Below, piece after piece: positions 26,046 through 40,227 of a stretch of DNA of 64,000 nt. The position numbers and the translations under genes are program-made. Source of the DNA: Thioalkalivibrio nitratireducens DSM 14787. GTDB lineage: Bacteria > Pseudomonadota > Gammaproteobacteria > Ectothiorhodospirales > Ectothiorhodospiraceae. Every line of letters starts with the position of its first letter. Positions within the stretch are counted from its first letter, which is position 1. The notes beneath the pieces were generated by a model. That model was not told the DNA's origin and did not search any database. It saw only the letters and a program-made list of their open reading frames with translations. The stretch lies in NCBI RefSeq assembly GCF_000321415.2, contig NC_019902.2, positions 744,001 through 808,000 on the forward strand. Reading direction: 5' to 3'.

Positions 26046-26097
26046 GCCGTGTCTCCTGTGGAATCGGGCCATGGCCCGACTGTGCTTCGGTTCGTGG

Positions 26098-27594
26098 TTA
26101 TTGTTTGGCGTCGAGAACGAGGGCGTCGCTGACGAGCTGGTGGACGCTGACGATCTGGTCCATCTGGAAGCCATAATAGGGCAGCACCTTGCTGAACTGG
26201 CTCTTGCAGATTGCGCAGATCGCGGCCATGTGCGTGACTTCGTGTTCGTCGACCACGTCTTTCAGTGCATTCATGCGGGGCAGTGCGCCCTTGACCCGAA
26301 GTTCCATCAGGTCGTCGGTCAGCAGACCCCCGCCGCCGCCGCAGCAGAACGTGCCTTCGCCGATGGTGTCGGGCGCCATGTCGTAGAAATGGTTGCAGGT
26401 GGCCTTGATGATCTCGCGCGGAATGATGAACTGCCCGCCCGGCATGTCGCCCATGCGGGAGGCACGGGCGACGTTGCAGGAATCGTGGAAAGTCACCCGG
26501 CGGTGGTCGTTGCGGCTCTTGTCCAGCGTCAGCACGCCGCGCTGGATGAGGTCGTAGGTGAACTCGCAGATGTGCTGCGGCACCGGGTAGCGCGGATCCA
26601 GGAAGTCGAACGGACCGGCGAGCGTGTTCAGGTAGCTGTAGGCCACGCGCCAGGCGTGGCCGCACTCGCCGAAGACGATGCGCTTCACGCCGAGGTCCAG
26701 CGCTGCCTCGCGGATGCGCATCGCGATGCGTTTCATGTTTTCGCCGGAGCCGATGAACAGACCGAAGTTCGCGGCCTCGGACGCGTGCGACGACAACGTC
26801 CAGGAGATGCCGGCGGCGTGGAAGACCTTCGCATACCCGATCAGACCGTCGATGTGCGGCTCGGCGAAGAAGTCGGCCGACGGCGTGACCACCAGGACTT
26901 CGGCGCCCTTCTCGTCGAGCGGGAAGCGCACGTCGATGCCGGTGTCATCCTTCACGTCCTCCTCGAGGCCGAGCAGGGTGTCTTCCAGCGCGGGCTGCGG
27001 CAGGCCAAGGTTGTTGCCGATCTTGAAGACCTTGCCGATGATCTCGTTGCTGTATTTCTGGCCCTTGCCGACCGCGTTCATGATGTCGCGGGTGGCCATC
27101 GTGATCTCGGCGGTATCGATTCCGTAGGGGCAATAGACGGAGCAGCGGCGGCACTCCGAGCACTGGTGGAAGTAGCTGTACCACTGGTCGAGCACGTCCT
27201 CGGTCAGGTCGGTCGCACCGACCAGCTTCGGGAAGTACTTCCCCGGGAGCGTGAAGTAGCGGCGGTAGACGCTGCGCAGCAGATCCTGGCGGGCGACCGG
27301 CATGTTGCGCGGATCGGAGGTGCCAAGGAAGTAGTGGCACTTGTCGGTGCAGGCGCCGCATTTCACGCAGGAATCCATGAACACCTGGAGCGCGCGGTTG
27401 GTCTGCAGCAGCTCGCCGAGCTTGTTGACCGCCACGTCCTTCCAGTTGTCGACCAGCTCGCCGGGGAAGCCGAGCGGTTCCTGGAACTGTTCCTTCGAAA
27501 CGAAAGGCTTGCTGTGGGACATGACCCCGCTTTTCAGTGCGGGGATCTCCACGGTATCGCTTTCGGTGAGTTCCGGGGTATCGAAATTGGCCAT
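26098..27594 (-). CDS. dsrK: DsrK, HdrD-like iron-sulfur catalytic subunit
   Basis: 498 residues. Two ferredoxin motifs (CVKCGACTDKCH and CSECRRCSVYCP) precede CCG-type motifs, including the CCGGGGGLLT segment near the C-terminus, which hold the non-cubane [4Fe-4S] site of heterodisulfide reductases. DsrK is the cytoplasmic subunit that acts on the DsrC trisulfide/disulfide and passes electrons to DsrM. ATG 27594 has AGGA upstream. 52 bases separate it from dsrL. Confidence 0.96.
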   Translation of the reverse strand: MANFDTPELTESDTVEIPALKSGVMSHSKPFVSKEQFQEPLGFPGELVDNWKDVAVNKLGELLQTNRALQVFMDSCVKCGACTDKCHYFLGTSDPRNMPVARQDLLRSVYRRYFTLPGKYFPKLVGATDLTEDVLDQWYSYFHQCSECRRCSVYCPYGIDTAEITMATRDIMNAVGKGQKYSNEIIGKVFKIGNNLGLPQPALEDTLLGLEEDVKDDTGIDVRFPLDEKGAEVLVVTPSADFFAEPHIDGLIGYAKVFHAAGISWTLSSHASEAANFGLFIGSGENMKRIAMRIREAALDLGVKRIVFGECGHAWRVAYSYLNTLAGPFDFLDPRYPVPQHICEFTYDLIQRGVLTLDKSRNDHRRVTFHDSCNVARASRMGDMPGGQFIIPREIIKATCNHFYDMAPDTIGEGTFCCGGGGGLLTDDLMELRVKGALPRMNALKDVVDEHEVTHMAAICAICKSQFSKVLPYYGFQMDQIVSVHQLVSDALVLDAKQ

Positions 27595-27628
27595 CGTGCG
27601 GGTTCCTGTCTAAGGGGCGCCGTTCGGG

Positions 27629-28381
27629 TTATTGATCCGCGCTCGCCGCGGGTTTTTCGCTCCGGACCATCCATTTCACGTTCGTGAGATGGCGCTTTTC
27701 GCGCGGATTGTCGACCTGGTTGCGGGTCGGGCTGAAGAATACGCCCGGCGCGTGCAGCAGCTTGCTGAACGGAAAAATGATCATCAGCCCGGCGACCAGC
27801 AGCAGATGCAGCAGCAGCATCGGGTGCGCGGGGAGCGGGTTGAAGTCGAACCGCATCAGTCCGGTGAAGAACAGCTTCACCGCGGTGATGTCGACGTGCC
27901 AGAGGTAGGTCATCGCGAGGCCGGTCAGGCCGATGCCCAGCAGCAGCGCCAGCATCAGGTGATCCGACGGCGAGGAGATGTAGCGAATGCGTTCCACGAA
28001 AACCCGTCGGGCCCAGAGTCCCGCGAGTCCGAGCACCATCGCGAACGCGGCATACTTGCCGAAGGGCTGAATCATCACGACCCAGGCGGGCACGGGATCG
28101 AGGAAGTAGCGCAGGTGGCGCAGCAGCACCAGTGCAAGCGCAACATGAAACACGATGCCGAAGATCCAGATCCATTTGTTGGCCTTGAACAGGCTGTTGA
28201 AAAGCACGACTTCAGTCACCATCCGCAGCACGACACCGCCACGGGTCGTCGGCGCCGGGGTAGTCGGAATCTTCAGCGGTGCCGGTGTCCGTGCATAACG
28301 TGCGATGCGCATGCCGATCCCGGCCAGAAAAATGGCCGTGGCCGCATAGAAGAGCAGGGCAAAGAGCACGGTGACAAACAC
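27629..28381 (-). CDS. dsrM: DsrM, membrane cytochrome b subunit
   Basis: 250 residues. The start is taken as GTG 28381, because a perfect GGAGG lies 7 bases upstream; a TTG two codons earlier (28387) would sit only one base after the same site. Five to six membrane helices are visible, with His residues in helices suited to haem b (FHVALALVLLRHLRYF, TYLWHVDITAVK). It is the NarI-like partner of DsrK and links it to quinone. It follows dsrC, from which it is separated by a strong hairpin. Confidence 0.94.
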   Translation of the reverse strand: MFVTVLFALLFYAATAIFLAGIGMRIARYARTPAPLKIPTTPAPTTRGGVVLRMVTEVVLFNSLFKANKWIWIFGIVFHVALALVLLRHLRYFLDPVPAWVVMIQPFGKYAAFAMVLGLAGLWARRVFVERIRYISSPSDHLMLALLLGIGLTGLAMTYLWHVDITAVKLFFTGLMRFDFNPLPAHPMLLLHLLLVAGLMIIFPFSKLLHAPGVFFSPTRNQVDNPREKRHLTNVKWMVRSEKPAASADQ

Positions 28382-28405
28382 GGGCAATCCTCCGGGTCAG
28401 GAAAA

Positions 28406-28430
28406 CCGGGTGGGGTGGGACCCCACCCGG
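28406..28430 (-). terminator. Strong intrinsic terminator-like hairpin between dsrC and dsrM
   Basis: On the minus strand CCGGGTGGGG-tccca-CCCCACCCGG forms a perfect 10-bp GC-rich stem, followed at once by TTTT. It begins 18 bases after the dsrC stop and ends 24 bases before the dsrM start. It fits a partial terminator or 3'-end stabiliser that sets dsrC mRNA above the downstream genes. Confidence 0.75.
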
Positions 28431-28448
28431 AGGGGTCGTGCAGATGGT

Positions 28449-28781
28449 TCAGACGCAGCCGGTCGGCTTCGGCAGCCCGGCGTATTTGCAGGCCTGCTTC
28501 GCGGGGCCGTACGGGAACAACTCGTACAGGTACTTGCTGTTGCCCTTGTCCGGCCCGAGCTTCTTGCCGATCGCCTTGGTCAGCACGCGGACGGCCGGGG
28601 CAATCTGGTATTCCTCGTAGTACTCGCGCAGGAAGTTGATGACTTCCCAATGGTTTTCGTCGAGGTCGGCACCGTCGGCCTTGGCCATCGCGGTGGCCAG
28701 GTCGGGGTTCCAGTCGTTCAGGTTGGCGAGGTAGCCCTCTTCGTCGGTTTCGTAGGTCTTGCCGTTGACTTCGATTGGCAT
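28449..28781 (-). CDS. dsrC: DsrC, sulfur-carrier protein
   Basis: 110 residues, family length. The C-terminal arm KQACKYAGLPKPTGCV carries both conserved cysteines: Cys98 and the penultimate Cys109. These form the bacterial heterodisulfide or carry the persulfide/trisulfide presented to DsrAB and DsrMK. A helix-turn-helix-like core is known for the family and DNA binding upstream of dsr has been proposed in A. vinosum. AGGAG lies 7 bases before the ATG. Contrast the cysteine-free paralogue at 35.0 kb. Confidence 0.97.
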   Translation of the reverse strand: MPIEVNGKTYETDEEGYLANLNDWNPDLATAMAKADGADLDENHWEVINFLREYYEEYQIAPAVRVLTKAIGKKLGPDKGNSKYLYELFPYGPAKQACKYAGLPKPTGCV

Positions 28782-28833
28782 GAGAGACTCCTGTTTGCTT
28801 GCGTTTCGGATGGATGTGCGGACCGGTCCGGAC

Positions 28834-29142
28834 TCAGAGCCAAGCCTGAACCTTGTCGTGCTTTGCGGTCAGGTCGACGAAATCGCCGTAGTCCACGACC
28901 GCTATGCCCTCGATGAGCTGTTCGGGGTTCATGCCGCGGGCGAGCAGATCCGGCCCGAGGACGAATACATTGTGCTGACCTACGGCACTACGGACCATAT
29001 CCTCGTGGGAGGTACCCCGGACGGACGCGTAGACGCCGTCCTCGATCAGCAGGATGTCGGAACCGGCTTTCGCGTGACCCAGGCAGGACGCGAGGGTATT
29101 GCGCTCGAACGGCGATTTGTTGACGGTGTGCAGCATGCTCAT
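28834..29142 (-). CDS. dsrH: DsrH, TusB-like sulfur-transfer subunit
   Basis: 102 residues. The conserved Cys20 falls in TLASCLGHAKAGSDILLIEDGVY, as expected for DsrH. It forms a hexameric DsrE2F2H2 complex that passes sulfane sulfur to DsrC. A GGGAG site is just upstream of the ATG, and dsrF ends 10 bases earlier. Confidence 0.95.
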   Translation of the reverse strand: MSMLHTVNKSPFERNTLASCLGHAKAGSDILLIEDGVYASVRGTSHEDMVRSAVGQHNVFVLGPDLLARGMNPEQLIEGIAVVDYGDFVDLTAKHDKVQAWL

Positions 29143-29152
29143 GACAACTCCC

Positions 29153-29545
29153 TCAGAAACTCAGAATGACGTCCTGCTCTTCCATCAGCTCGGTCAGGGC
29201 CTCGCGCCCCATGACCTCGACCGGGACCAGCAGGTCATCCTCGGAGAGTCCACGTTCGGCCAGTGACTCGGCTTCGACGTAGAGCTTCTCGACGTCGTAG
29301 CCCTCCAGGGCGCGGTAGGTGGGCGAGAAGTTCTTCATCCCGATTCCCTGCGTTTCCTGCCCCTTCTTCAGCTGGTACACGCCGTCGTCCAGGAAGACCA
29401 TGCTGACGTCCTGTTCGAAGGCGGCTGCGATCAGCACGACTTCCAGCGATTCCAGCGCATAGATGGTTCCGTACGGTGCCTTGCGGTTCACGTACATGAA
29501 CTTCTTGATCGTGCCTGGACCTTCTTCTTCCCAAGGTTCTGACAT
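29153..29545 (-). CDS. dsrF: DsrF, TusC-like sulfur-transfer subunit
   Basis: 130 residues of the DsrE/F fold (IKKFMYVNRKAPYGTIYALESLEVVLIAAAF). It contains no cysteine at all, so it cannot itself carry persulfide; its role in DsrEFH would be structural. It is spaced 97 bases from dsrE by a hairpin-containing gap and 10 bases from dsrH. Confidence 0.95.
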   Translation of the reverse strand: MSEPWEEEGPGTIKKFMYVNRKAPYGTIYALESLEVVLIAAAFEQDVSMVFLDDGVYQLKKGQETQGIGMKNFSPTYRALEGYDVEKLYVEAESLAERGLSEDDLLVPVEVMGREALTELMEEQDVILSF

Positions 29546-29576
29546 TTCGTTCTACCTTCGATGATGATGGTTGCGT

Positions 29577-29618
29577 GGCCGGCTCCCCGGATGCGGGCGC
29601 ACCAGCACGAAGCCGGCC
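29577..29618 (-). other. Long-loop hairpin in the dsrE-dsrF gap
   Basis: GGCCGGCT (29577-29584) pairs with AGCCGGCC (29611-29618), an 8-bp stem around a 26-base loop. No T tract; could affect mRNA processing or stability within dsrEFH. Confidence 0.4.
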
Positions 29619-29642
29619 GGTGCGGGTCGGCCCGTTGCGGTG

Positions 29643-30035
29643 TCAGTCGCCGAACACCACCAGGCGGTCGCACTGGATCCCTGCCTCGATCAGCTGGCCG
29701 AGGCCGGAGATCCGAAAACCGGGGGCGATGTTGTCACCGTCCTTGCCCTGACGCTTGGCCTCGCCCTCATCGAGCAGACCGCGGCGCTGTGCGGCGGCGA
29801 TGCAGATTACCATGTCGACACCATGCTGTTCGGCCATTTCGGTCCAACGCGTGGTGATGTTGCGGTCATCTTGCGGTGGCACGCCGAAGCGGGTGCCGTT
29901 GTTCACGCCGTCATGATAAAAGAACACGCGGAAGACCTCGTGGCCCTTGTCGAGCGCGGCCTTCGCGAACTGGTAGGCGGTGTCCGAGGCCTGGTGCTGA
30001 TACGGGCCCTCGTTGACCAGAATTCCGTATTTCAT
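29643..30035 (-). CDS. dsrE: DsrE, TusD-like sulfur-binding subunit
   Basis: 130 residues from ATG 30035, chosen over an in-frame start three codons earlier because AGGA is 9 bases upstream and because the active Cys then becomes Cys78 (VDMVICIAAAQRRG), the number in A. vinosum DsrE. DsrE receives persulfide sulfur and hands it to DsrC. The presence of dsrEFH separates oxidative from reductive Dsr systems. Confidence 0.96.
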   Translation of the reverse strand: MKYGILVNEGPYQHQASDTAYQFAKAALDKGHEVFRVFFYHDGVNNGTRFGVPPQDDRNITTRWTEMAEQHGVDMVICIAAAQRRGLLDEGEAKRQGKDGDNIAPGFRISGLGQLIEAGIQCDRLVVFGD

Positions 30036-30063
30036 TCGGTGCATTCCTGTTGAGCCTGTTGAC

Positions 30064-30092
30064 GAACCGGCGGCCCTGGGGGCCGCCGGTTC
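30064..30092 (-). other. 12-bp perfect hairpin in the dsrB-dsrE gap
   Basis: GAACCGGCGGCC and GGCCGCCGGTTC enclose a 5-base loop, 31 bases after the dsrB stop. It has no U tract, so a stabilising 3' structure for dsrAB mRNA is more likely than termination. Confidence 0.7.
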
Positions 30093-30123
30093 AACCTCTG
30101 CCGGGTCGGGGATTCGGCCCGGA

Positions 30124-31200
30124 TCAGAACCGGATGTGGGTCGACGCGTTCAGGCTGTTGCGCGCGCCGCGCCAGTTCTCGATGTGGTACCGGGTGAACG
30201 GCAGCCCGGTCTTTTCGAAGAACGCGGGCCAGCCGATGCGCTCGATCCAGTCGTTGATGCGCTCCCAGTCCTGACCGTCTTCCTGGTACACCTTCAGGAT
30301 CCGCTTCACGATCGCGGTGGCCTCCGGCCAGCGCGGCGGGTTGTTCGGAATCCCGGACGCGACCAGCTTCTGGAACGTCGGCTTGCCGCGGGCGTTGGAG
30401 TGGTTGCCGCCGACCCAGATCGCGAACTTGGTGTGCTCGGCATCGTTGATCTGCATCGGGGGGCAGGGCGGGTAGCAGGCGCCACAGCAGATGCACTTCT
30501 TCTCGTCGACTTCGAGCGACGGCTTGCCGTTCACCAGTGCCGGGCGGATTGCGGCGACCGGGCAGCGGGCGACGACCGACGGGCGTTCGCAGACGTTGGC
30601 CACCAGGTCGTGGTTGATCTTCGGGGGCTTGGTGTGCTGGACGTTGATCGCGATGTCGCCCTGGCCGCCGCAGTTGATCTGGCAGCACGAGGTGGTGATG
30701 TGCACGCGGTTCGGCATGTTGCAGTTGCGGAACTCGTCGATCAGTTCGTCCATCATCGCCTTCACCACGCCGGAAGCGTCGGTGCCGGGGATGTCGCAGT
30801 GCAGCCAGCCCTGGGTGTGCGAGATCATCGATACGGAGTTGCGCGTGCCGCCCACGACGAACCCGGCATCTTCCAGTGCGTTGATCAGCGGCTCGACCTT
30901 GGCCTCGTCGGCGACCATGTACTCGAGGTTCGAGCGGATGGTGAAGCGCACGTAGCCGTCGGCGTACTGGTCACCGATATCGCAAAGCTTGCGCAGCGTG
31001 AACACGTCAAGGATGCGCTGGGTTCCGGCCTTGACGGTCCAGATCTTCTCGCCCATGTCGGAAACGTGAAGCAGGACGCCGGGCCGGGGATGCTCGTGGT
31101 ACTTCCACATGCCGAAGTTGCGGCGCATCACCGGATGCATGTACTGGAAACCGTCCGGGCAACCGGATTCGATCGGCGGACGCATGGCTGGTTGTGACAT
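30124..31200 (-). CDS. dsrB: Reverse-type dissimilatory sulfite reductase beta subunit
   Basis: 358 residues. Sirohaem/[4Fe-4S] motifs are present (for example HITTSCCQINCGGQGDIAI), plus an inserted ferredoxin domain with CICCGACYPPCPPMQIND. With DsrA it forms the alpha2beta2 enzyme that oxidises sulfane sulfur delivered by DsrC to sulfite, using a sirohaem amide. A GGGAG site precedes ATG 31200. Confidence 0.98.
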   Translation of the reverse strand: MSQPAMRPPIESGCPDGFQYMHPVMRRNFGMWKYHEHPRPGVLLHVSDMGEKIWTVKAGTQRILDVFTLRKLCDIGDQYADGYVRFTIRSNLEYMVADEAKVEPLINALEDAGFVVGGTRNSVSMISHTQGWLHCDIPGTDASGVVKAMMDELIDEFRNCNMPNRVHITTSCCQINCGGQGDIAINVQHTKPPKINHDLVANVCERPSVVARCPVAAIRPALVNGKPSLEVDEKKCICCGACYPPCPPMQINDAEHTKFAIWVGGNHSNARGKPTFQKLVASGIPNNPPRWPEATAIVKRILKVYQEDGQDWERINDWIERIGWPAFFEKTGLPFTRYHIENWRGARNSLNASTHIRF

Positions 31201-31251
31201 CGATTACTCCCGCTATCTCTCTAATGCGTTGGGTTCGGTCAGGGTGGAGAA

Positions 31252-31270
31252 CCGCGGGATCAACCCGCGG
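31252..31270 (-). other. Hairpin overlapping the dsrA stop codon
   Basis: CCGCGGG-atcaa-CCCGCGG gives a 7-bp perfect stem whose loop contains the dsrA stop codon region. It may slow ribosomes or protect the dsrA 3' end. Confidence 0.45.
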
Positions 31271-32525
31271 CGGCCTGCCGCTGTTCCATCTTGTGGCGCA
31301 GGTAGTTCTCCGCAGCCTCGTCGTACTCGTCCATGCGGATGTAGGAGCTCAGGCGCGGATGGTTGACCATGTTCGGGTCGGCCTCCAGGCCCATGCCCTT
31401 CAGGAAGTTCACCAGGCCGATGCGCTCGATCATCTCGCCGCAGCGCTCGTGTTCCAGTCCGTTCTCCGCCCAGAAGTCGATGATGTTCTCGGCGAGTTCG
31501 ACCAGACCCTGGTAGTCCTCTTCGGTCTCGAGCTTCATGAACGGCACGATCACGGTACCCATCAGGTCGCCGATCTTCAGCGTGCGCTTGCCGCCGACGA
31601 GGATAGTCACGCCCTGGTCGTCCCCGGGGGACAGTGCCTTGGTCATCACGTTGATGCAGTGCATGCAGCGCACGCAGTTGCCATTGTCGATGGACAGGGT
31701 GTTGTCCTCGTTCAGCGTCATGCACTTGCTGGGACAGCGGTTGATCACGTCCAGGTGGACTTTGTCGCGGCCGTACTCGGCGACGAAGTTCTTGACCTCT
31801 TCCTGGTCGATCTTGATGTCGTCGCGCCAGGTGCCGATCACCGCAAAGTCGGAGCGCTCGATCGCGTTCACGCAGTCGTTCGGGCAGCCGGACACCTTGA
31901 ACTTGAACTTGTACGGCAGCGACGGGCGGTGCACGTCGTCGGTGAAGCGGTTCAGCAGCGTGCGGTGGATGCGCTGCTCGTTCGCGCAGGACTGCTCGCA
32001 GCGCGCCGCGCCAACACAGGACATGCCGGTACGCACGCAGGGGCCGGCGCCGCCGAGGTCGAAGCCGTATTCGTTGATTTCGTCAAAGAAGGACTGGGTG
32101 TTCGTGGTGTTCACGCCGATGAACATCGCGTTGCCGGTCTGGCCATGGAAGGTCACCAGGCCCGACCCGAACTTCTCCCAGCTGTTGGCGAGCTGGCGCA
32201 GAATGTCGGTGGTGTAGAAGTTGCCGGCCGGCGGCTGTACCCGCACGGTGTGGAACTCGCGCGACTCGGGGAACGACTTGGCGACCTCGGAGAAGCGCGG
32301 GATGATCCCGGAACCGTAGCCGAATACCGACACCGTGCCGCCCTTCCAGTAGCCCTTGCGGGTTTCGTAGGAATGCTCGAGCTGACCCAGCAGGTCGTTG
32401 CTCACGTTCTTGATCCGGTCATCCGGATGTTCGTCACGAAGGCGCTTGATTCCCGAGATGAAGCTCGGCCAGGGGCCGTTTTCCAACTCGTCGAGCATGG
32501 GGGTCGGATGATGTTGGTTCGCCAT
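31260..32525 (-). CDS. dsrA: Reverse-type dissimilatory sulfite reductase alpha subunit
   Basis: 421 residues. Cysteine-rich segments for sirohaem-[4Fe-4S] coupling (CVGAARCEQSCANEQRIH, FKVSGCPNDCVNAIERSDF) and a ferredoxin insert (NRCPSKCMTLNEDN..., GNCVRCMHCINVM) are present. It is the catalytic partner of DsrB. First gene of the operon; AAGGAG lies 5 bases before the ATG. The oxidative assignment comes from dsrEFH and dsrL in the same operon and the absence of dsrD. Confidence 0.98.
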   Translation of the reverse strand: MANQHHPTPMLDELENGPWPSFISGIKRLRDEHPDDRIKNVSNDLLGQLEHSYETRKGYWKGGTVSVFGYGSGIIPRFSEVAKSFPESREFHTVRVQPPAGNFYTTDILRQLANSWEKFGSGLVTFHGQTGNAMFIGVNTTNTQSFFDEINEYGFDLGGAGPCVRTGMSCVGAARCEQSCANEQRIHRTLLNRFTDDVHRPSLPYKFKFKVSGCPNDCVNAIERSDFAVIGTWRDDIKIDQEEVKNFVAEYGRDKVHLDVINRCPSKCMTLNEDNTLSIDNGNCVRCMHCINVMTKALSPGDDQGVTILVGGKRTLKIGDLMGTVIVPFMKLETEEDYQGLVELAENIIDFWAENGLEHERCGEMIERIGLVNFLKGMGLEADPNMVNHPRLSSYIRMDEYDEAAENYLRHKMEQRQAAAG

Positions 32526-33023
32526 GGCGGTCTCCTTGTTCGGGTTCTGGATGCGGGCCGGCTCGAGTCACTCGGGTCGACACGTTGCGATAGTTTAGCC
32601 GGTTCGAGCCCGTCGTCGAGGGTTCGGCTTGGCCGCTTTTGCCACTGCGGAGGCGATCCCGCGGCGAGGATCCCTCGTCACACGGTCGGTTACTCTAGGA
32701 TCCAGCGAGCGGCGAAAACATCCTACTCATGGGGGAGGGTAATGGGGGGGCTCTATCCCTCCCGAGATATACGGGGCCCGGGGAATGCCGAGGCGCGGTG
32801 TCGAGGCGTCGCGACGGGGTCGCCCGGCCCGCATCAATTCCGCGTCGGCGGCGGGGTCGGGGCGCCATCCGCCCGCCGGAAAGCCCTCTATCCCGGAAGG
32901 ATAGTTGTGGTGATCCTGCAGCGCACTACACTGCGCCCACCGCAGGCCGCGTCCTGCTTTCGGGAGGTCCGCGCCCGATGGTCGGCTCGATGTGCGGCCA
33001 GAAGACCATAACGCGTCGAACAA
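32526..33023. promoter_or_regulatory. 498-base divergent intergenic region between dsrA and the accessory cluster
   Basis: Holds the promoters of the dsr operon (leftwards) and of the TauD gene (rightwards). For dsr, a -10-like TAAACT is readable on the minus strand at 32598-32593, but no good -35 goes with it. A CTATCCC heptamer occurs at 32754-32760 amid G-runs, and again in the palindrome at 32888-32904. No gene is seen; overlapping long frames on both strands are noise. Confidence 0.5.
32888..32932 (+). promoter_or_regulatory. Palindrome plus sigma70-type promoter for the TauD operon
   Basis: A perfect palindrome CTATCC-cggaa-GGATAG (32888-32904) is followed at 32905 by -35 TTGTGG, a 16-base spacer, and -10 TACACT (32927-32932). 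The palindrome centre is 9 bases before the -35 hexamer, about -43 from the expected start, where class II activators bind. The same arrangement is at 35380-35425. Confidence 0.5.
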
Positions 33024-33950
33024 ATGATGACCAGTGCCACACCTCAACACCAGCACGCTGCGCCCGCCGGGAGGCCTTTTGACCTCGGTGACGATGCAGC
33101 CTATCGACGCTGGCGGGCCGACAAGCTGCGCCGCTTTCCGCAAGCGCTGGGCGCGGTGACGGTGGACGTGGAAGACATCGCCCGCCCGAGCGCCGGGGAA
33201 CGCGCGGCGCTGACCGACGCGATCCAGCGGGCGAACATGGTGATCTACCGGTGCCGGGCGCCCGGCACCGACCGAGGGTCGGTGCGTGCGTTCGGGCGGG
33301 CGCTGGGGCTGGAGCGCGTCGACGAGCACCTGTGTGCCGACGACGACGGGGTCAGCGAATTGCAGGTCAGCGACGGCAATGGTCACCAGGCCGACTACAT
33401 CCCCTATACCGATCGCCCGCTGAGCTGGCATTGCGACGGCTACTACAACGAGTCGGCACGGACCATCCGCGCGATGCTGCTGCACTGCGCACGCGATGCG
33501 GCTGAAGGTGGCGAGAACGGACTCGTCGACCACGAGATGCTGTACATTGCGCTGCGCGACCGCTATCCCGAGTACCTGGCGGCGCTGATGCACCCCGAGG
33601 CACTGACGATTCCCGCCAATGTCCAGGATGGGCAGGTGCTGCGTCCGGAGCGGACCGGTCCGGTGTTCAGCGTGGATCCGGCGACTGGGGCGCTGCACAT
33701 GCGTTATACCGCGCGCGGACGGAACGTGCGCTGGCGCGACGACGCAACGACGCGGGAGGCGGCCGCTCGGATCACGCAGATGCTCGAGTCGGAAGACGTT
33801 CCGGTGTTCCGGTGCCGGCTCGCACCCGGCGAGGGACTCCTTTGTAATAATGTGCTGCACAACCGTACGGGGTTCCGGGACGATGCGGAGGGCGGCCGGC
33901 AGCGACTGGTCTACCGTGTCCGATTCCTGGACCGTGTGGCGGAAACCTGA
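33024..33950 (+). CDS. TauD/TfdA-family Fe(II)/2-oxoglutarate dioxygenase
   Basis: 308 residues. The iron-binding facial triad is visible: LSWHCDGYYNES (HxD) and NNVLHNRTGF (distal His), with RLVYRVRF providing the 2-oxoglutarate Arg. The N-terminal 45 residues are less conserved. TauD itself releases sulfite from taurine; this homologue lacks an adjacent taurine transporter and is placed beside dsrA, so its substrate is open. It starts MMTSATPQ with a weak ribosome site and is followed 9 bases later by a 63-residue gene, likely the same operon. Confidence 0.8.
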   Translation: MMTSATPQHQHAAPAGRPFDLGDDAAYRRWRADKLRRFPQALGAVTVDVEDIARPSAGERAALTDAIQRANMVIYRCRAPGTDRGSVRAFGRALGLERVDEHLCADDDGVSELQVSDGNGHQADYIPYTDRPLSWHCDGYYNESARTIRAMLLHCARDAAEGGENGLVDHEMLYIALRDRYPEYLAALMHPEALTIPANVQDGQVLRPERTGPVFSVDPATGALHMRYTARGRNVRWRDDATTREAAARITQMLESEDVPVFRCRLAPGEGLLCNNVLHNRTGFRDDAEGGRQRLVYRVRFLDRVAET

Positions 33951-33959
33951 GGTATTGCG

Positions 33960-34151
33960 ATGATTTGGCTGAGCGAGATGCTGATGCAGAACCAGGATCT
34001 CGAATCCTTCGAACAGCTGCTGGAACTCGTGCGTGAGCGTGCCCGCGAGGGGGAACGCTTCCTGAGTTCCGATGTGCGGCCCCCGTTCCCGGACACGCCG
34101 ATGGACTGGGAGGAGCGCATCGAGGCGGCCTTTACCTCGGCGAGCGGCTGA
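33960..34151 (+). CDS. Small acidic protein of unknown function (63 residues)
   Basis: Starts ATG 33960 with TGAGGT 7 bases upstream. It is predicted to be helical in its first half (MLMQNQDLESFEQLLELVRERAREG) and then proline-rich (SSDVRPPFPDTPMDWEERIEAAF). No signal peptide, no cysteine. The stop codon is immediately followed by the ATG of the Cas6-like gene, which argues that it is a real, coupled gene. Not recognised. Confidence 0.6.
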   Translation: MIWLSEMLMQNQDLESFEQLLELVRERAREGERFLSSDVRPPFPDTPMDWEERIEAAFTSASG

Positions 34152-34844
34152 ATGGGAGCCGGGATGTTCTGGGACGATTCGCCGCGGGACGAACTCGCCG
34201 GGCTGCGTGACGTCGTCGACGTCGCGTATCGGATCGACTGCCCCCGCCTGCCTCTGGATCATGCGCATGCGTTGTCTTCGGCGCTGCTCGAGCTGCTGCC
34301 CTGGCTGGGCACCGAGGACCACGCGGGCGTGCATCTGATTCACGGCGCGGAGTCCGGCAACGGGTGGATGCGTCCGCAGGATCCGGAGCGCGACCTGCTG
34401 CACCTGTCCCGGCGGGCCCGGCTGCGGCTGCGCGTGCCCGTGGCGCGCGTCGACGAGGCCGCGACGCTGATCGGCCGGACGCTCGAGGTGTCGGGGTTCG
34501 GGATCGGCGTGGGGCCGATGAATGTGATTCCGCTGGAACCCTTGCCGGTGGTGTTCGCCCGCCACGTCGTTGCGGATCCGGAACAGGACGAGCCGGCGTT
34601 CCTTGCCGAGATGGCGGCCGAACTGGGGCGCATCGGCGTGCCGGCTTCCAAGCTGCTGAGTGGCCTGAGTCACGTGCTGCGGGTGCCGGGCGGATTGCTG
34701 CACACGCGCAGCCTGATGGTCGCGGAACTCGACGCCCAGTCGTCGCTGCGACTGCAGCGCAGCGGCGTCGGATCCGATCAGGCGCTGGGTTGTGGCCTGT
34801 TCATCGGGCACAAGGACATTGCGCCGGTTCCCGGGGCGGGATAA
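34152..34844 (+). CDS. Orphan Cas6/Cmx6-like (RAMP-fold) protein
   Basis: 230 residues; ATG 34164, with GGGAG 5 bases ahead, is an alternative start. The sequence follows the Cas6 variant called Cmx6 (MYXAN type): the N-terminal RIDCPRLPLDHAHALSSALLELLPWL, with His37/His39 where family members have a conserved His; the mid segment LHLSRRARLRLRVP; and a C-terminal LRLQRSGVGSDQALGCG-LFIGHKDI with the glycine-rich loop of RAMP proteins. Cas6 enzymes cut CRISPR precursor RNA. No CRISPR array or other cas gene is visible in the 64 kb. A role as an RNA-binding protein in sulfur metabolism is inference from context. Confidence 0.7.
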   Translation: MGAGMFWDDSPRDELAGLRDVVDVAYRIDCPRLPLDHAHALSSALLELLPWLGTEDHAGVHLIHGAESGNGWMRPQDPERDLLHLSRRARLRLRVPVARVDEAATLIGRTLEVSGFGIGVGPMNVIPLEPLPVVFARHVVADPEQDEPAFLAEMAAELGRIGVPASKLLSGLSHVLRVPGGLLHTRSLMVAELDAQSSLRLQRSGVGSDQALGCGLFIGHKDIAPVPGAG

Positions 34845-35017
34845 CCGGGGTGCCCGTCATCTGTGAGGCATGCTCCGCCGGGCCTCGGCATGCGTGTCCG
34901 GCGGTTTCAACGCAGTAGCAGTATCCGGGATCTGGGGCTGCCCGGGGGAGTTTCCCGGGGACGGATCCCGAACCCACCGTGAAACCTGTATGACCGAAGT
35001 CAAGGGAGGAAGACCAG

Positions 35018-35359
35018 ATGAGTCTGGAAGTCGATGGCAACACCATCGCCACGAACGCGAACGGGTATCTCGAGGAACTGTCGGACTGGAGCGAGAAGGT
35101 TGCGGAAGCCATCGCCGCGAAGGAAGGCATCACGCTGACTCAGCGGCACTGGGACCTGATCCGCTACCTTCGCGACGAGTACGTCAACAATGGCGAAAAC
35201 CAGCCCAACACGCGGACCATCGTCAAGGCCATGCAGCAGCTCTGGAGCGACAAGAGCGTCGATGCCAAGACCGTCTATGACCTCTTCCCGCTCGATCCCA
35301 GCAAGCAGGGTGGCCGTATCGCCGGCCTGCCCGAGAGCCGGCGCAAGGGCGGATACTGA
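35018..35359 (+). CDS. RspA-type DsrC/TusE paralogue lacking both cysteines
   Basis: 113 residues with clear DsrC similarity (MSLEVDGNTIATNANGYLEELSDWSEKV; LTQRHWDLIRYLRDEY). The C-terminal arm reads KQGGRIAGLPESRRKGGY where DsrC has KQACKYAGLPKPTGCV, so both redox cysteines are gone and no other cysteine is present. Such forms have been named RspA and proposed to be regulatory. It cannot carry sulfur. A strong AGGGAGG site is 9 bases before the ATG. A regulatory, DNA- or protein-binding role is inference. Confidence 0.85.
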   Translation: MSLEVDGNTIATNANGYLEELSDWSEKVAEAIAAKEGITLTQRHWDLIRYLRDEYVNNGENQPNTRTIVKAMQQLWSDKSVDAKTVYDLFPLDPSKQGGRIAGLPESRRKGGY

Positions 35360-35379
35360 CGCAACCCCGCGCCGGCGAC

Positions 35380-35425
35380 CTATCCCCTAAGGGAGGTTAA
35401 GCGCCCCGTCGGCCGGTGTTAGAGT
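35380..35425 (+). promoter_or_regulatory. Second palindrome plus promoter, upstream of the 67-residue gene
   Basis: Imperfect palindrome CTATCC-cctaa-GGGAGG (35380-35396), then -35 TTAAGC at 35397-35402, a 17-base spacer and -10 TAGAGT (35420-35425). The palindrome centre is again 9 bases before the -35, as at 32888-32932. Transcription would start near 35432 and read the genes from 35483. Confidence 0.5.
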
Positions 35426-35482
35426 CGCGCTGGCCACGGGGTTTGTGCGACTGCCACCCCACCACCTTGGAGACACGCAACC

Positions 35483-35686
35483 ATGAGCAATAAGCAGGCA
35501 CTGATCAAGGAAATGCTGGAAATGCAGAAGCGTTTCATGGAATACGAGCACCAGAACGGTGTCGATCCGGTCGACTACTACATTGCGCCCGAGGGTCATC
35601 CCCTTCATGGCTACCACAAGCGTTATCGCGACATCGCGATGCAGCTGGTGGATATTGCCCACGAGGATAAGGGCTCGCACCGCTGA
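35483..35686 (+). CDS. Small conserved-looking protein (67 residues)
   Basis: ATG 35483 has GGAG 10 bases upstream. MSNKQALIKEMLEMQKRFMEYEHQNG forms a helix, followed by VDPVDYYIAPEGHPLHGYHKRYRDIAMQLVDIAHEDKG, with four His and several Tyr that could bind metal. No signal sequence, no cysteine. It has its own promoter. I do not recognise the family; its placement between rspA and the DUF3050 gene suggests a role in the same module. Confidence 0.65.
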   Translation: MSNKQALIKEMLEMQKRFMEYEHQNGVDPVDYYIAPEGHPLHGYHKRYRDIAMQLVDIAHEDKGSHR

Positions 35687-35796
35687 GTTCCGACCGGATG
35701 GATGCGGACGGTATGCAACCGGGCCGCATCCACCGTGTTCCCGGCACCTCCACGTTGCCGTCTTGCCCCGCAATGCCCACCGCCCAGGGTATCCCC

Positions 35797-36576
35797 ATGC
35801 CCCAGCCTACCGGTTTCGACCCGAAGGTTCTCGAGCCGCTGCGCAAGCGCCTCGACGAGCATCCGGTCTATGGTCTGCGCGATCTCGATGCGCTGCGCCA
35901 TTTCATGGAACATCATGTCTATTCGGTCTGGGATTTCATGTCCCTGATCAAGTACCTGCAAGGGCATCTGGCACCAGTGCGGCAGCCGTGGACGCCAAGC
36001 GGAGATGCCGCGGTACGCCGGTTCATCAACGAACTCGTGCTGGAAGAGGAGTCCGACGCGGTGCCGGGTCCCGGCGGCGTGGACCGCCACATGAGTCACT
36101 TCGAACTGTACTGTGAAGCGATGGAGGAACTTGGTGCGGATCCCGAACGCCCGCGGCGATTCGTGGCGATGGCCTCGGAACGGGGGATCGATGCAGCGCT
36201 GGCTGCGGGGATCGCACCGGAACCGGCGGCCCGTTTCATGCGTTCCACCTTTGACTTCATCGCCAGTGGCAAGCCGCACGTGGTGGCCGCCGCGCTGGCC
36301 CTCGGGCGTGAACACGTGATTCCGGGGATGTTCCGCAGCTTCCTGCGCGAGATGGGGGTCGGGTCCGGCGCGGCCCCGCAGTTCCATTTCTATCTCAACC
36401 GGCACATCCACCTCGACGAGGACTTTCACGGGCCGATGTCGCTGCGGATGCTGGATCTGCTGTGCGCCGGGGACCCGACCAGGCTCGCCGAGGCCCGAGC
36501 TGCGGCCGGCACTGCGCTGGAGGCGCGAATCGAGTTCTGGGACGGGGTCCACGCCCGGTTGCGGGAGGCCGCATGA
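35797..36576 (+). CDS. DUF3050 family protein, haem-oxygenase-like fold
   Basis: 259 residues from ATG 35797; ATG 35773 and 35698 are in frame and possible. The helical repeats MEHHVYSVWDFMSLIKYLQ, NELVLEEESD, HMSHFELYCEAME and FHFYLNRHIHLDEDFHGPMSLRML match DUF3050, which belongs with haem-oxygenase-like di-iron oxidases; the His/Glu residues are spaced as possible di-iron ligands. The substrate is unknown. Its stop overlaps the start of the next gene by 4 bases. Confidence 0.75.
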   Translation: MPQPTGFDPKVLEPLRKRLDEHPVYGLRDLDALRHFMEHHVYSVWDFMSLIKYLQGHLAPVRQPWTPSGDAAVRRFINELVLEEESDAVPGPGGVDRHMSHFELYCEAMEELGADPERPRRFVAMASERGIDAALAAGIAPEPAARFMRSTFDFIASGKPHVVAAALALGREHVIPGMFRSFLREMGVGSGAAPQFHFYLNRHIHLDEDFHGPMSLRMLDLLCAGDPTRLAEARAAAGTALEARIEFWDGVHARLREAA

Positions 36577-37187
36577 GCCTGCGCCTGAGGGGGCGGTGGA
36601 AGCAGGGCGGACGCGAGCGCAGTCTTGAGGATCTGGCGACCGCGGCTGCGTCGAACGCGTGGCGCGCCGCCTGCAACGGCGTGCTGAACCTCGAAAACGA
36701 GGGGTTCGAGACGACGTCGCGGGCCCAGCGGCTGGACATCATCGAAGAGTTCGTCGCCTTCCTGGTGCTGGTGGCGGATCGCGTGGCCTACGAGCGGCTG
36801 GACGACGACGAGCGCGGCCGCTTCATCACGGCGATGGCGCTGCGGCTGTCGGGGCTGGTCGATGAGAACCGCAGCGATGCCCAGGGGCCGGGGCAATACC
36901 GGGAGCAGTTCATCGACAAGCTGAACGAACGCACGGGCCTCTATGCCGAGTGCAGCTACAGCGAGCAGGAAGGCCCCGGGTTTTCGATGCTCTGCGTGCT
37001 CGGAGACCGGGTCACCGATGTGCTTGGCCCGACCAACCGCAAGTGGGCCCAGGACCAGGTCGTGGCGATCGACGGTCCGGAGGCCGCGCAGGCTTTCACG
37101 CGGGCGCTGAAGTCGCTGCTGGGGGCCGCTGCTGCCAGTGGCCCCCGTGCCGGCGATGGACCGACGCGGCCCCTGGCCGACGACTGA
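36573..37187 (+). CDS. Unrecognised helical cytoplasmic protein
   Basis: 204 residues from ATG 36573, overlapping the DUF3050 stop (ATGA), so translation is coupled. Mostly alpha-helical with no membrane segment: LEDLATAAASNAWRAACNG, RLDIIEEFVAFLVLVADRVAYERL, GRFITAMALRLSGLVDENR. The end is low-complexity. I do not recognise the family. Tight coupling to a di-iron oxidase suggests a partner or substrate-binding role. Confidence 0.65.
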   Translation: MSLRLRGRWKQGGRERSLEDLATAAASNAWRAACNGVLNLENEGFETTSRAQRLDIIEEFVAFLVLVADRVAYERLDDDERGRFITAMALRLSGLVDENRSDAQGPGQYREQFIDKLNERTGLYAECSYSEQEGPGFSMLCVLGDRVTDVLGPTNRKWAQDQVVAIDGPEAAQAFTRALKSLLGAAAASGPRAGDGPTRPLADD

Positions 37188-37489
37188 GTGCGGCCAACTG
37201 GCGTTCCGGTCCCGGGCGGGGGCGTTCGATTCAGGGATTCGCGACGCTGCAGCGGTTCCGGTGCAGCAGTCAGGACGCCGCCGGCCCGTGGCGTTCGCAT
37301 CTCGGCGTACCATTTCTGGGCTGTGGCGCCGCGCGTCGTTCGGCGCTCGCCGCTCCCGCGACCATGCGCTGTCCCGCCGGCCGCGCACCGGGACCGTCAT
37401 CCGGATCTCCGCCGCGGGGCGGGGCATCCCGGCGCCGGTAGCCCCGATGAACCCTTCCGGATCACGTAACAGGGGGAGTGTACGGCGCC
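37188..37489. other. 302-base interval before trmJ
   Basis: No gene is supported. In many gammaproteobacteria suhB lies divergently beside trmJ; it is absent here. A GGGGGAG ribosome site for trmJ is near 37471-37477. No clear promoter hexamers were found. Confidence 0.5.
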
Positions 37490-38239
37490 ATGGAGGATCA
37501 ACTCGGCCGCATCCGTGTGGTGCTGGTGGGTACATCGCACCCGGGTAACATCGGTTCCGTGGCCCGGGCGATGAAGGCCATGGGGTTGTCGGATCTGGTA
37601 CTGGTGGATCCGCAGCGTTTCCCCGCAGCCGAGGCGACAGCACTGGCGGCAGGCGCGGACGACCTGCTGGCGCGGGCCCGGGTGCTGACGCGGCTTGAGG
37701 ATGCGGTCGCCGATTGCGTCTGGGTGGTCGGAACCAGCGCCCGGCGGCGCGGCCATTCGGTGCCGGTGTTCGATCCCGAGCCGGCGGCGCGGGAACTGAT
37801 CGCCCGTGCATCCGGGGGATCCGTGGCGCTCGTCTTCGGCCGGGAAAGCAGCGGGCTGACCAACGCCGAACTGGATCGCTGCACCGCGCTTGTGCAGATT
37901 CCCACCGACCCAGGTTTCAGCTCGCTCAATCTTGCGGCCGCCGTCCAGGTGCTGGCGTACGCCTGCCGGACCGCGGCGCTGGTGGGAGATTCCGGCAGCG
38001 CGCCCGGCGGCGGCGTGGAACGCCACGCGACGCAGGCCGAAATGGAGGCCCTGTTCGAGCACTATCAGCGGGTGTTGGTGCAGATCGAATTCCTCGATCC
38101 GGAGAAACCGCGCCACCTGATGCGCCGGTTGCGGCATCTGTATCAGCGTGCCGGTCTCACGGCCAACGAGGTGCGCATCCTGCGCGGGATCCTGACGCAC
38201 ACGGAACGCGGTGGAGGACGCCCGCGAACCGGGTCGTGA
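37490..38239 (+). CDS. trmJ: tRNA (cytidine/uridine-32-2'-O)-methyltransferase TrmJ
   Basis: 249 residues from ATG 37490 (a GTG at 37478 is in frame). The SPOUT domain has RVVLVGTSHPGNIGSVARAMKAMG, motif 2 ALVFGRESSGLTNAEL with the catalytic Arg/Glu region, and motif 3 SSLNLAAAVQVLAYA. It methylates position 32 of tRNAs. The trmJ-cysE-iscR order is common in gammaproteobacteria. Confidence 0.93.
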   Translation: MEDQLGRIRVVLVGTSHPGNIGSVARAMKAMGLSDLVLVDPQRFPAAEATALAAGADDLLARARVLTRLEDAVADCVWVVGTSARRRGHSVPVFDPEPAARELIARASGGSVALVFGRESSGLTNAELDRCTALVQIPTDPGFSSLNLAAAVQVLAYACRTAALVGDSGSAPGGGVERHATQAEMEALFEHYQRVLVQIEFLDPEKPRHLMRRLRHLYQRAGLTANEVRILRGILTHTERGGGRPRTGS

Positions 38240-38277
38240 TATCGTAGAATCCTGTCCCGATTGCGATGGCGCTCCCC

Positions 38278-39075
38278 ATGTTCCAGCGGCTACGTGAAGA
38301 CATCCAGTGTGTATTCGCTCGCGACCCGGCCGCGCGGAACTCGTTCGAAGTGTTCACGGCTTACCCCGGCCTTCATGCCGTCTGGGTGCATCGTCTCGCC
38401 CACGGACTCTGGCGCTGGAAGCTCCGCTGGCTGGCCCGGGTGCTGGCAAACGTCGGGCGCCTGATTACCGGCATCGAGATTCACCCCGGGGCACGGATCG
38501 GGCGCCGCTTCTTCATCGACCACGGTATGGGTGTGGTGATCGGGGAGACCGCCGAGATCGGCGACGACTGCACGCTGTACCACCAGGTGACCCTCGGCGG
38601 GACCAGTTGGGACAAGGGCAAGCGTCACCCGACGCTGGACGATGGCGTGGTGATCGGTGCCGGCGCGAAGGTGCTGGGGCCGGTCCACATCGGGACGCGG
38701 GCGCGGATCGGGTCGAACGCGGTGGTGCTGCGAGACGTGCCCGCCGACGCAACGGCCGTCGGGATCCCCGCGCGGGTGCTCGGTCCACGGCCGGAGCCGA
38801 ATCCTCGGTTCAAGGCGATGGCCGACCGGATGGGTTTCGATGCCTACGGTCTGACCCGCGACATGCCGGACCCGGTGGCCAACGCGATTCACCGGATCGT
38901 GGATCACCTGCACGAGGTCGACGAGCGGATGGAACGCGCCTGTGAAGCGCTGAAAAAGGCGGGGATCGACATCGGGGCCGATGAAGAACTGCATCCGATT
39001 TCCAACTGCGATCTCGAGGGGCTTGAACCCGAGGAGTGCGAAATTCCCCCACGCAAGACCTCGGGAAATACCTGA
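38278..39075 (+). CDS. cysE: Serine O-acetyltransferase (CysE)
   Basis: 265 residues from ATG 38278 (ATG 38266 is an alternative). The left-handed beta-helix hexapeptide repeats run from about residue 60 ([33 protein letters not shown]), with the catalytic His in IDHGMG. This shorter SAT type lacks the long N-terminal helical domain of E. coli CysE; it carries a longer C-terminal tail instead. It makes O-acetylserine, the substrate of CysM (7.5 kb). A -10-like TAGAAT lies at 38245-38250. Confidence 0.95.
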
Positions 39076-39127
39076 TCGACTCCATTCGGTACCATTCTCT
39101 GCCTGGATACCGGAGTGCGTGACCGCG

Positions 39128-39628
39128 ATGAAACTGACCACGAAGGGACGTTACGCCGTGACTGCAATGCTCGATGTCGCGATGCATGCGGAGCAGCGGC
39201 CGGTGTCCCTTGCCGACGTGGCCAGGCGGCAGCACCTGTCGCTCTCCTACCTCGAGCAGCTCTTCGCGCGCCTGCGGCGCAAGGGGCTGGTGAGCAGCAG
39301 CCGGGGGCCCGGTGGCGGCTATCGCCTGAGTCGCCGGTCCGACGCGATCACGGTGGCCGAGATCATCCTGGCGGTTGACGAACCGGTGGACGTGACCCGT
39401 TGCGGAGGGCAGGCCAACTGTACCCATCGCTCGCAGTGCCTGACGCATGACCTGTGGACTGACTTGAGCCAACAGGTCGAAAGCTTCCTGAGCGAGCGCT
39501 CGCTGGCCGACGTGCTGCACCGGTATCGGGAGGCGCGCGCGGCGCGCGAACGTGTACCGGAATCCGGCGATGGCCAGGCGGCCATTCCGATCGCGGCCTC
39601 GGCCGACACTGGCTCCAAGTCCCGATAA
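39128..39628 (+). CDS. iscR: Fe-S cluster assembly transcriptional regulator IscR
   Basis: 166 residues from ATG 39128. The winged-helix Rrf2 domain begins [19 protein letters not shown]. The [2Fe-2S] ligands Cys92, Cys98, Cys104 and His107 are all present ([16 protein letters not shown]). IscR represses the isc operon when it carries a cluster. Unusually, the next gene is ndk; iscS, iscU, iscA, hscBA and fdx, which normally follow, are not here. Confidence 0.95.
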
Positions 39629-39692
39629 CGTCGGTCATAACCCGTTCCAACGCATCCTCGCGCGAGTTCGGGGCCTGCCTGCGTCCGGTTCG

Positions 39693-39721
39693 TTGCCCTG
39701 CGTCCGGGCTGCCGCTAGACT
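39693..39721 (+). promoter_or_regulatory. Candidate ndk promoter
   Basis: -35 TTGCCC (39693-39698), 17-base spacer, -10 TAGACT (39716-39721). The expected start near 39728 gives a 68-base leader that contains the hairpin at 39745-39762. Confidence 0.45.
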
Positions 39722-39744
39722 ACGCCGCGATTGCAGCGTTATGG

Positions 39745-39771
39745 ACCCGCCGCCTGGCGGGTTCTTGTTTT
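39745..39771 (+). terminator. Terminator-like hairpin 25 bases before ndk
   Basis: ACCCGCC-gcct-GGCGGGT (39745-39762) is followed by TTCTTGTTTT. It may end the iscR transcript, be a remnant of a lost isc operon terminator, or attenuate ndk if the promoter at 39693-39721 is real. Confidence 0.6.
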
Positions 39772-39795
39772 CAAACACCATCGAGGAGATCACCT

Positions 39796-40227
39796 GTGGC
39801 CCAGGAGCGTACCCTGTCCATCATCAAGCCCGACGCGGTCGCCAAGAACGTGATCGGCGACATCTACAGCCGGTTCGAGAAGGGGGGGCTGCGGATCGTG
39901 GCCGCGCGCATGCTGCACCTGAGCCGCGACCAGGCCGAGGGCTTCTACGCGGTGCACCAGGAACGCCCGTTTTTCCGGGATCTGGTGGATTTCATGATCT
40001 CGGGTCCGGTGATGGTGCAGGTGCTGGAAGGTGACGATGCGATTCGGCGGCATCGTGACATCATGGGCGCCACCAACCCGAAGGAAGCGGCCCCGGGAAC
40101 CATCCGGGCGGACTTCGCGACCAGCATCGACGAGAACGCAGTCCACGGCTCCGATGGCCCGGATACCGCGAAGACCGAGATCGCCTTCTTTTTCGACGAC
40201 AGCGCCATTTGTCCACGCACCCGCTAG
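39796..40227 (+). CDS. ndk: Nucleoside diphosphate kinase
   Basis: 143 residues from GTG 39796, with GAGGAG 8 bases upstream. [15 protein letters not shown] at the N-terminus and the active-site His117 in NAVHGSDG are diagnostic. It equalises nucleoside triphosphate pools. The ndk-rlmN-pilW-rodZ block normally follows the isc operon in gammaproteobacteria, which is why its direct contact with iscR is notable. Confidence 0.97.

Follow-up and report, generated by a model that had tools for sequence, protein, structure and literature searches.

A Cas6-family protein probably exapted alongside oxidative Dsr sulfur metabolism in Gammaproteobacteria

The gene at positions 34152 to 34844 (forward strand) of the 64,000-nucleotide stretch of Thioalkalivibrio nitratireducens DNA analyzed here (the window) encodes a 230-residue protein that profile matches and a modelled fold place in the Cas6 family (PF09559). 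A role outside CRISPR and a linkage to the Dsr system can be assigned to this protein with high confidence. It is likely, if less certain, that Cas6 has been exapted in Gammaproteobacteria to assist the oxidative (reverse) Dsr pathway as an accessory protein, probably together with the DsrQ oxygenase; the step on DsrAB is one that we infer.

Family, fold and CRISPR context

The product of the gene matched PF09559 with 182.9 bits (gathering score 26.7; E = 8.5e-54; residues 22–221) and TIGR02807 (cas6_cmx6) with 128.3 bits (cut-off 98.85; E = 3.5e-37), and PADLOC Cas6 models matched as well. The Cas6/Cmx6-like RAMP identity put forward in the original prediction was therefore borne out well above curated cut-offs, and the DHAHAL segment and C-terminal glycine-rich stretch on which it had been based are both present in the 230-residue translation. 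Among solved sequences, the sole match was a type I-B CAST Cas6 (8fcj_B, E = 7e-6). A structure predicted from 45 aligned homologues (pLDDT 88.4, pTM 0.83) displayed the double ferredoxin-like arrangement of Cas6, and comparison of this model using Foldseek returned 8fcu_B and 8fcj_B as the best matches (E = 4e-16; TM 0.74/0.79), with all of the 45 top matches being Cas6 or Cascade entries. Since the profile and structure-model matches were all to Cas6, nothing was found that speaks against the family or the fold, and the sequence and the model together indicate a true Cas6-family member. The gene is present as a single copy in the complete 4.0 Mb host genome, and its real start is probably the ATG at 34164, four codons in, because most relatives open with MFW or MYW.

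No direct-repeat family was detected in the window at the settings used, and a tblastn search of it with 12 Cas queries gave no match, in agreement with the earlier statement that the 64 kb contain neither an array nor another cas gene. Those CRISPR-free surroundings do not extend to the genome, which has arrays about 0.67 Mb away. A type III-B-like locus encoding Cas10, Cmr and CARF proteins and Cas1 lies ~ 0.67–0.69 Mb from the Cas6-like gene, and two regions of 36-nt repeats (31 and 32 copies in the respective families, partial ones included) were found at the same distance. This distant locus encodes its own Cas6, which matched a Cas6 model other than that of the window gene (E = 1e-93), gave no blastp match to the window protein, and has a pI of 9.8 over its Cas6 part, compared with 5.6 for the window protein.

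It could be asked whether the window gene supplies the crRNA-processing Cas6 of the host CRISPR in trans, given that it belongs to the right family and that arrays exist in the genome. The arrays, however, have their own Cas6 beside the Cas10, Cmr and Cas1 genes, 67 of 118 genomes bearing a window-type gene gave no cas1 match, neither a match to six type I-MYXAN Cas queries nor a convincing array adjoined the gene in 117 homologous loci, and the distribution of the family tracks dsrA (below). With a dedicated Cas6 at the arrays and a dsrA-like distribution, this explanation was rejected as extremely improbable.

The surroundings of these 117 loci were searched with six Cas queries, all of type I-MYXAN, and no match was obtained. 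No convincing CRISPR array was found beside any of them; the one repeat flagged, near locus L190, proved to be a 54-nt repeat in three copies and was rejected. In these loci, and with these queries, the gene was not found encoded with cas genes and an array. A separate Cas6/Cmx6 gene without annotated cas neighbors in the displayed stretch was observed on the cyanobacterial (Gloeobacter) plasmid pGMOR1, where it sits beside PAPS-reductase-family genes.

A conserved cassette and its distribution

The gene lies 1.6 kb from the start of dsrA (31260 to 32525, reverse strand, starting at 32525), which is transcribed divergently from a set of forward-strand genes. These encode a TauD-family 2-oxoglutarate/Fe(II) oxygenase with the HxD...H residues kept (33024 to 33950; the dsrQ of the literature), an unannotated protein of 63 amino acids (33960 to 34151), the Cas6-like protein, and a DsrC paralogue of the C-terminal RKGGY type (35018 to 35359; PF04358/TIGR03342). 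The canonical dsrC, by contrast, encodes both C-terminal cysteines and is located at 28449 to 28781 on the reverse strand. The gene had been placed between tauD and the DsrC paralogue, 1.6 kb from dsrA; this placement was right, but the 63-residue gene lying in between had been overlooked. Farther downstream on the forward strand are genes for a DUF3050 protein with a weak haem-oxygenase-like match (35698 to 36576) and for a protein of about 241 amino acids without assigned function (36462 to 37187). Same-strand relatives of the DUF3050 protein were found in none of the 117 gammaproteobacterial loci, and downstream same-strand relatives of the ~ 241-residue protein in 39 of them.

The same arrangement, with dsrA on one strand and tauD, the Cas6-like gene and the DsrC paralogue on the other, was found wherever the contig extends far enough in a separate collection of 46 loci, which was gathered using peptides of the host Cas6-like protein and is biased to near kin; the exceptions were two loci (L039 and L042) without dsrA in their stretch. 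The 117 class loci, 84 of which are 12 kb or longer, gave a broader picture, with counts that depend on contig edges using 113 or 86 loci. A DsrC-like gene was present no more than 1.3 kb downstream of the Cas6-like gene in 87/113, a same-strand tauD in 80/117, and an upstream, divergent dsrA in 70/86. The 63-residue gene was found in 97/117, every time in the same orientation as the Cas6-like gene. At least one of tauD, the DsrC paralogue, dsrA and the 63-residue gene was nearby in 109/117. The remaining eight loci had none of these four nearby; seven have full flanks and one (L177) begins at a contig end. The 10 neighbors scanned in six loci to which the gene has moved included sulfur-related genes (a YeeE-type Sulf_transp protein, TauE and a thioredoxin) as well as those for a glycosyltransferase, a SpoU methylase, RNase III, a 5'-nucleotidase, a peptidase and others.

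Additional genes were observed in or near the cassette. In 44 loci, tauD is separated from the Cas6-like gene by a gene for a protein of ~ 235 amino acids, here gene X (for example L103:3767-4450, reverse strand); its product had no Pfam match at 0.1, and its fold model is all-helical, with weak best matches mostly to TPR-type helical repeats and none at E ≤ 0.001. Further 2OG-Fe(II) oxygenases (PF13640) are encoded near the cassette, one cluster in L133 and 53 other loci and another in L106 and 33 more. Most members of the two clusters (49/55 and 27/34, respectively) are on the opposite strand.

The phyletic distribution of the family was explored by searching 369 genomes of Gammaproteobacteria with profiles for PF09559, dsrA (TIGR02064) and Cas1. 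A dsrA match was called strong at E < 1e-30, a cut-off of our own choosing, and 98 weaker matches, which we interpret as assimilatory-type reductases, were not counted. PF09559 was found in 118 genomes, strong dsrA in 119 and Cas1 in 136, with one PF09559 match per genome except in G264, where two pieces resemble one broken gene. The two distributions nearly coincided: 111 genomes had both PF09559 and strong dsrA, seven had PF09559 only, eight had dsrA only and 243 had neither (odds ratio 482, p = 7e-75). Strong dsrA is thus present in 111/118 genomes with the family, and the family in 111/119 genomes with strong dsrA. The association of PF09559 with Cas1 was weak (51 genomes with both, 67 with PF09559 only, 85 with Cas1 only and 166 with neither; Fisher p = 0.08), Cas1 being found in 51/118 genomes with the family versus 85/251 without it, and co-occurrence of the family with CRISPR was not borne out by this marker. 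For dsrA and Cas1 the corresponding counts were 53, 66, 83 and 167 (p = 0.04), with Cas1 in 53/119 strong-dsrA genomes. Note that the p values from this survey are descriptive because related genomes are not independent. Taken with the cassette and with the separate clade described below, these counts indicate that the suspected link of a repurposed Cas6-type fold to sulfur oxidation is far stronger than had been supposed. The survey of dsr-positive genomes proposed as a check on that idea had the gene tracking dsrA and only weakly cas1.

The exceptions were few. The eight strong-dsrA genomes without the gene have completeness values from 55 to 99%; three have tauD, and in one of these three (G123) the 63-residue gene stands at the end of its contig, at the expected site of the Cas6-like gene. 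Conversely, six of the seven genomes with the gene but without strong dsrA have a same-strand tauD and/or DsrC paralogue adjoining it, and in the seventh (locus L158) the 63-residue gene is directly upstream and a DsrC-like gene is on the other strand. The Cas6-like gene was found to be kept in five genomes of only 1.0–1.1 Mb.

A second draw covered 299 genomes of the phylum (Pseudomonadota). PF09559 was found in four of these, the host genome and three new ones, and these four were every gammaproteobacterial strong-dsrA genome in that draw. A hand count from the same table gave 48 strong-dsrA genomes in other classes of Pseudomonadota, none with PF09559; Dsr therefore works without the Cas6-like gene in those classes. 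The link to dsr is strong, yet confined to Gammaproteobacteria among the genomes drawn.

Synteny with oxidative dsr genes and a matching distribution were thus both observed, and a stray orphan or a recent transfer was rejected on the grounds of the synteny and the co-occurrence with dsrA. The word 'orphan', used in the original prediction, understated the case, since the gene belongs to a conserved cassette. A second full-length dsrA (570 bits) was also noted ~ 1 Mb away in the host genome (G000:C1:1765000-1784000), with no second Cas6-like gene.

Sequence divergence from CRISPR-linked Cas6 and the question of RNA

The closest known systems are the Cas6/Cmx6 proteins of type I-MYXAN (I-B-like) and of type I-B CAST (PDB 8fcj, 8fcu), with which the dsr-linked family has in common the Pfam and NCBIfam models, the fold, the DH motif, core arginines and the C-terminal glycine-rich loop. 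The dsr-linked family differs in standing outside cas operons, in forming its own clade and in several features of its sequence. The CRISPR-linked comparison set consisted of seven cyanobacterial proteins, and a tree was prepared from these, one cyanobacterial orphan, 49 of the 118 dsr-linked class sequences and the three from the phylum draw. The dsr-linked and cyanobacterial proteins fell on opposite sides of a branch with support of 100/98 from a bootstrap that had not settled. We infer that the dsr-linked family descends from a CRISPR Cas6 and not the other way round.

Among 121 dsr-linked sequences, H37 was conserved in 99%, R94 in 100% and R137 in 94%. H37 stands at the start of helix 1, the position of the Cas6 histidine that we take to be catalytic, and a histidine was also present in 6/6 CRISPR-linked rows covering that position. 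Its conservation calls for caution, as the residue could equally well reflect a retained RNase. Another conserved feature, N70, G71 and W72 (94–99% of the 121), belongs to a loop that the dsr-linked family has mostly gained. All 45 aligned homologues share the segment AESGNGW unchanged; of the 118 class proteins, 94 have GNGW exactly and 53 have ESGNGW. This loop is missing from the CRISPR-linked members and also from the proteins of G596, G569 and G620, and its prediction in the model was poor, with pLDDT values under 50 for residues 68–72.

One alternative interpretation is that the Cas6-like protein still binds or cuts RNA, such as a hairpin of a dsr-related transcript or a small RNA, and in this way tunes dsr expression. 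The protein retains the Cas6 fold, the histidine position and several arginines, a possible stem was seen by eye in the dsrA leader of one subgroup, and two moved copies adjoin RNA genes (RNase III and SpoU methylase). However, several basic positions of the CRISPR type have mostly been lost from the dsr-linked family (69, 135, 142, 156, 173, 179, 180 and 209); positions 90, 94, 137 and 210 have stayed basic, and 177, 200 and 211 have done so in part. The dsr-linked proteins are neutral to acidic. Their median pI was 5.9 for the whole protein (118 sequences) versus 9.3–10.2 for eight cyanobacterial proteins, and 6.8 from the DH motif onwards versus 9.4 for the CRISPR-linked relatives, with a core net charge of about −1. 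The argument from charge is only a moderate one because acidity is shared by other proteins encoded in these loci (pI of 5.2 for DsrA, 5.2 for the DsrC paralogue and 6.6 for TauD). The dsr genes outside Gammaproteobacteria, moreover, are without the gene in the genomes drawn.

The action on dsr mRNA, with its intergenic hairpins, that had been proposed found no support either. No Rfam match was obtained at the gathering threshold in positions 22000 to 40000 of the window. The gap between dsrA and tauD contains a palindrome of the type TATCYC-N-GRGATA (32754 to 32769), which is conserved upstream of dsrA and lies inside the sole match to MTATCYCNNNNRGGATA in the 4.0 Mb genome, and a second palindrome, CTATCCCGGAAGGATAG (32888 to 32904), which adjoins a −35-like TTGTGG of a tauD-side promoter recognized by eye. 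The strict TATCYC-N-GRGATA pattern, which was picked after examples had been seen, occurred in 36/85 dsrA upstream regions, from related loci that are not independent, and in none of 50 rounds of shuffling; a fuzzy version, run with no control, occurred in 61/85. In the window, a looser pattern picked out the MTATCYCNNNNRGGATA site again, in both orientations, where 0.19 matches were expected; 5/100 shuffles gave as many. As judged by eye, the well-conserved palindromes stand upstream of the apparent promoters of both dsrA and tauD, and they therefore look like DNA operators, probably those of a dsr regulator, rather than parts of an mRNA. The earlier suggestion of RNA binding or processing was consequently left unsupported. 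Binding of RNA by the Cas6-like protein is possible from its sequence, but we regard the tuning of dsr expression through RNA as a rather unlikely account of the family.

Partners of the Cas6-like protein and a proposed role

The 63-residue protein had no match in Pfam or NCBIfam. The frame at 33960 to 34151 is nevertheless coding, because differences among eight loci of the Thioalkalivibrio group fell 142/29/596 on the three codon positions, and 18 columns are invariant in 23 sequences of the family. Its presence was also checked in 45 chosen genomes. The gene was found in 5/5 cassette controls, in 6/8 genomes with the Cas6-like gene away from dsrA, in 1/8 dsrA genomes without the Cas6-like gene and in 0/17 Gammaproteobacteria with neither. 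In other classes, it was found in 4/5 genomes with a high-scoring dsrA and in 0/2 with a lower-scoring one. These four other-class genomes have it between tauD and a gene for a DUF6967 protein, and in the three that were scanned a siroheme synthase is encoded next to DUF6967 and no Cas6-like match was found. DUF6967 is also encoded directly upstream of the Cas6-like gene in G596, G569 and three class loci, and in G620 it is fused to the N terminus of the Cas6-like protein.

The DsrC paralogue shares PF04358 and TIGR03342 with the DsrC/TusE family but has a KGGY tail in place of the cysteine arm of canonical DsrC. Among 89 collected relatives, the C terminus contains KGGY in all and RKGGY in 86, and a cysteine within the last 20 residues in six, whereas 69/70 canonical DsrC neighbors carry one among their three final residues.

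The relationship between the Cas6-like protein and the other cassette products was further examined using pairwise distances in 52 loci containing all six genes. The correlation was 0.76 for Cas6-like/TauD, close to that for DsrA/DsrB (0.78), and 0.37 for Cas6-like/DsrA and 0.27 for Cas6-like/DsrC paralogue, although correlations with DsrC are lowered by its short length and others may be raised by the shared transfer of linked genes. Given DsrA, DsrB and DsrE, the Cas6-like/TauD value was 0.73. In loci with gene X the values were 0.64 with TauD versus 0.53 with DsrA, and in loci without gene X they were 0.78 versus 0.63. The divergence of the Cas6-like protein thus follows that of TauD more closely than that of DsrA, with a lead that shrinks within subgroups.

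The place occupied by the cassette tauD is that of dsrQ, a gene similar to tauD and located upstream of dsrA (Lenk et al. 2012, cited in PMC7596348), for which a release of sulfite from sulfonates has been the subject of published speculation (PMC7596348). By extension, the whole cassette could free sulfite from organosulfonates for use by Dsr, with the Cas6-like protein being an enzyme subunit or a regulator. Conservation of the oxygenase residues in TauD (HxD in 96% and the distal histidine in 100% of 81 sequences) and the joint divergence of the Cas6-like protein and TauD are compatible with that idea, which for tauD/dsrQ alone is the one already in print. TauD scores, however, far under the NCBIfam equivalog cut-offs of the models that it matched. 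Moreover, tauD was not nearby in 37/117 loci with the Cas6-like gene (eight of the 37 have less than 2.5 kb of upstream sequence), 22 of which do have the 63-residue gene, and the cysteine-less DsrC would be left unexplained. Release of sulfite from organosulfonates by the cassette therefore appears improbable.

The reading that we prefer is that Cas6 left CRISPR and became an accessory of Dsr-based sulfur oxidation in its oxidative direction. The Cas6-like protein would partner the DsrQ oxygenase and the 63-residue protein at the protein level, and this partnership would serve to mature, protect or gate DsrAB in a step that depends on oxygen. The cysteine-less DsrC paralogue with its RKGGY tail would be a non-catalytic stand-in for DsrC, and the retained pocket, with its histidine and the GNGW loop gained since, would have switched from a CRISPR repeat to a new ligand or a protein tail. 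The siroheme synthase link in other classes and the DsrC-like tail are the grounds on which DsrAB or its cofactor is suggested as the target. In this specific form, an oxygen-dependent module of DsrQ, the 63-residue protein and the RKGGY-type DsrC that matures or gates DsrAB, with the old Cas6 pocket acting on a protein or cofactor target, the proposal is put forward tentatively, as a possibility with somewhat less than an even chance.

Parts of this picture have appeared in print. 'DsrQ/DsrU (unknown functions)' are named in PMC6018796, and DsrU could be either the Cas6-like gene or the 63-residue gene; neither of these genes appears in the passage of PMC7596348 that concerns dsrQ. In PMC10989796, the legend to Figure 3B includes the entry 'purple: cas6' for the dissimilatory sulfur metabolism gene clusters drawn for proteobacterial MAGs from mangrove. 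The same cas6–dsr adjacency was therefore shown there, without comment; the word CRISPR is not in the main text, and the portions of that paper that were consulted do not treat distribution, cassette, clade or role. Other papers naming both 'DsrC' and 'Cas6' mention, in the excerpts retrieved, ordinary CRISPR loci or proteins only. No treatment of the Cas6-like protein as a Dsr component was found in the parts of the literature searched, where the gene may have had an earlier name (DsrU; Lenk et al. 2012). The protein family and a printed adjacency are thus known, and treatment as a component of Dsr is what was not found reported.

In Gammaproteobacteria, then, a family annotated as CRISPR Cas6 is distributed like a Dsr gene. 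The two members scanned against NCBIfam, the host protein and a divergent one in L209, both exceed the equivalog cut-off of TIGR02807 and would accordingly receive the name 'type I-MYXAN CRISPR-associated protein Cas6/Cmx6'. If the proposed role is correct, CRISPR surveys using TIGR02807 would overcount cas6 in sulfur oxidizers. The oxidative Dsr set would grow by two or more components, namely the Cas6-like protein and the small protein that is also encoded beside dsr in other classes, and the family would offer a testable case of a CRISPR-type protein in central metabolism.
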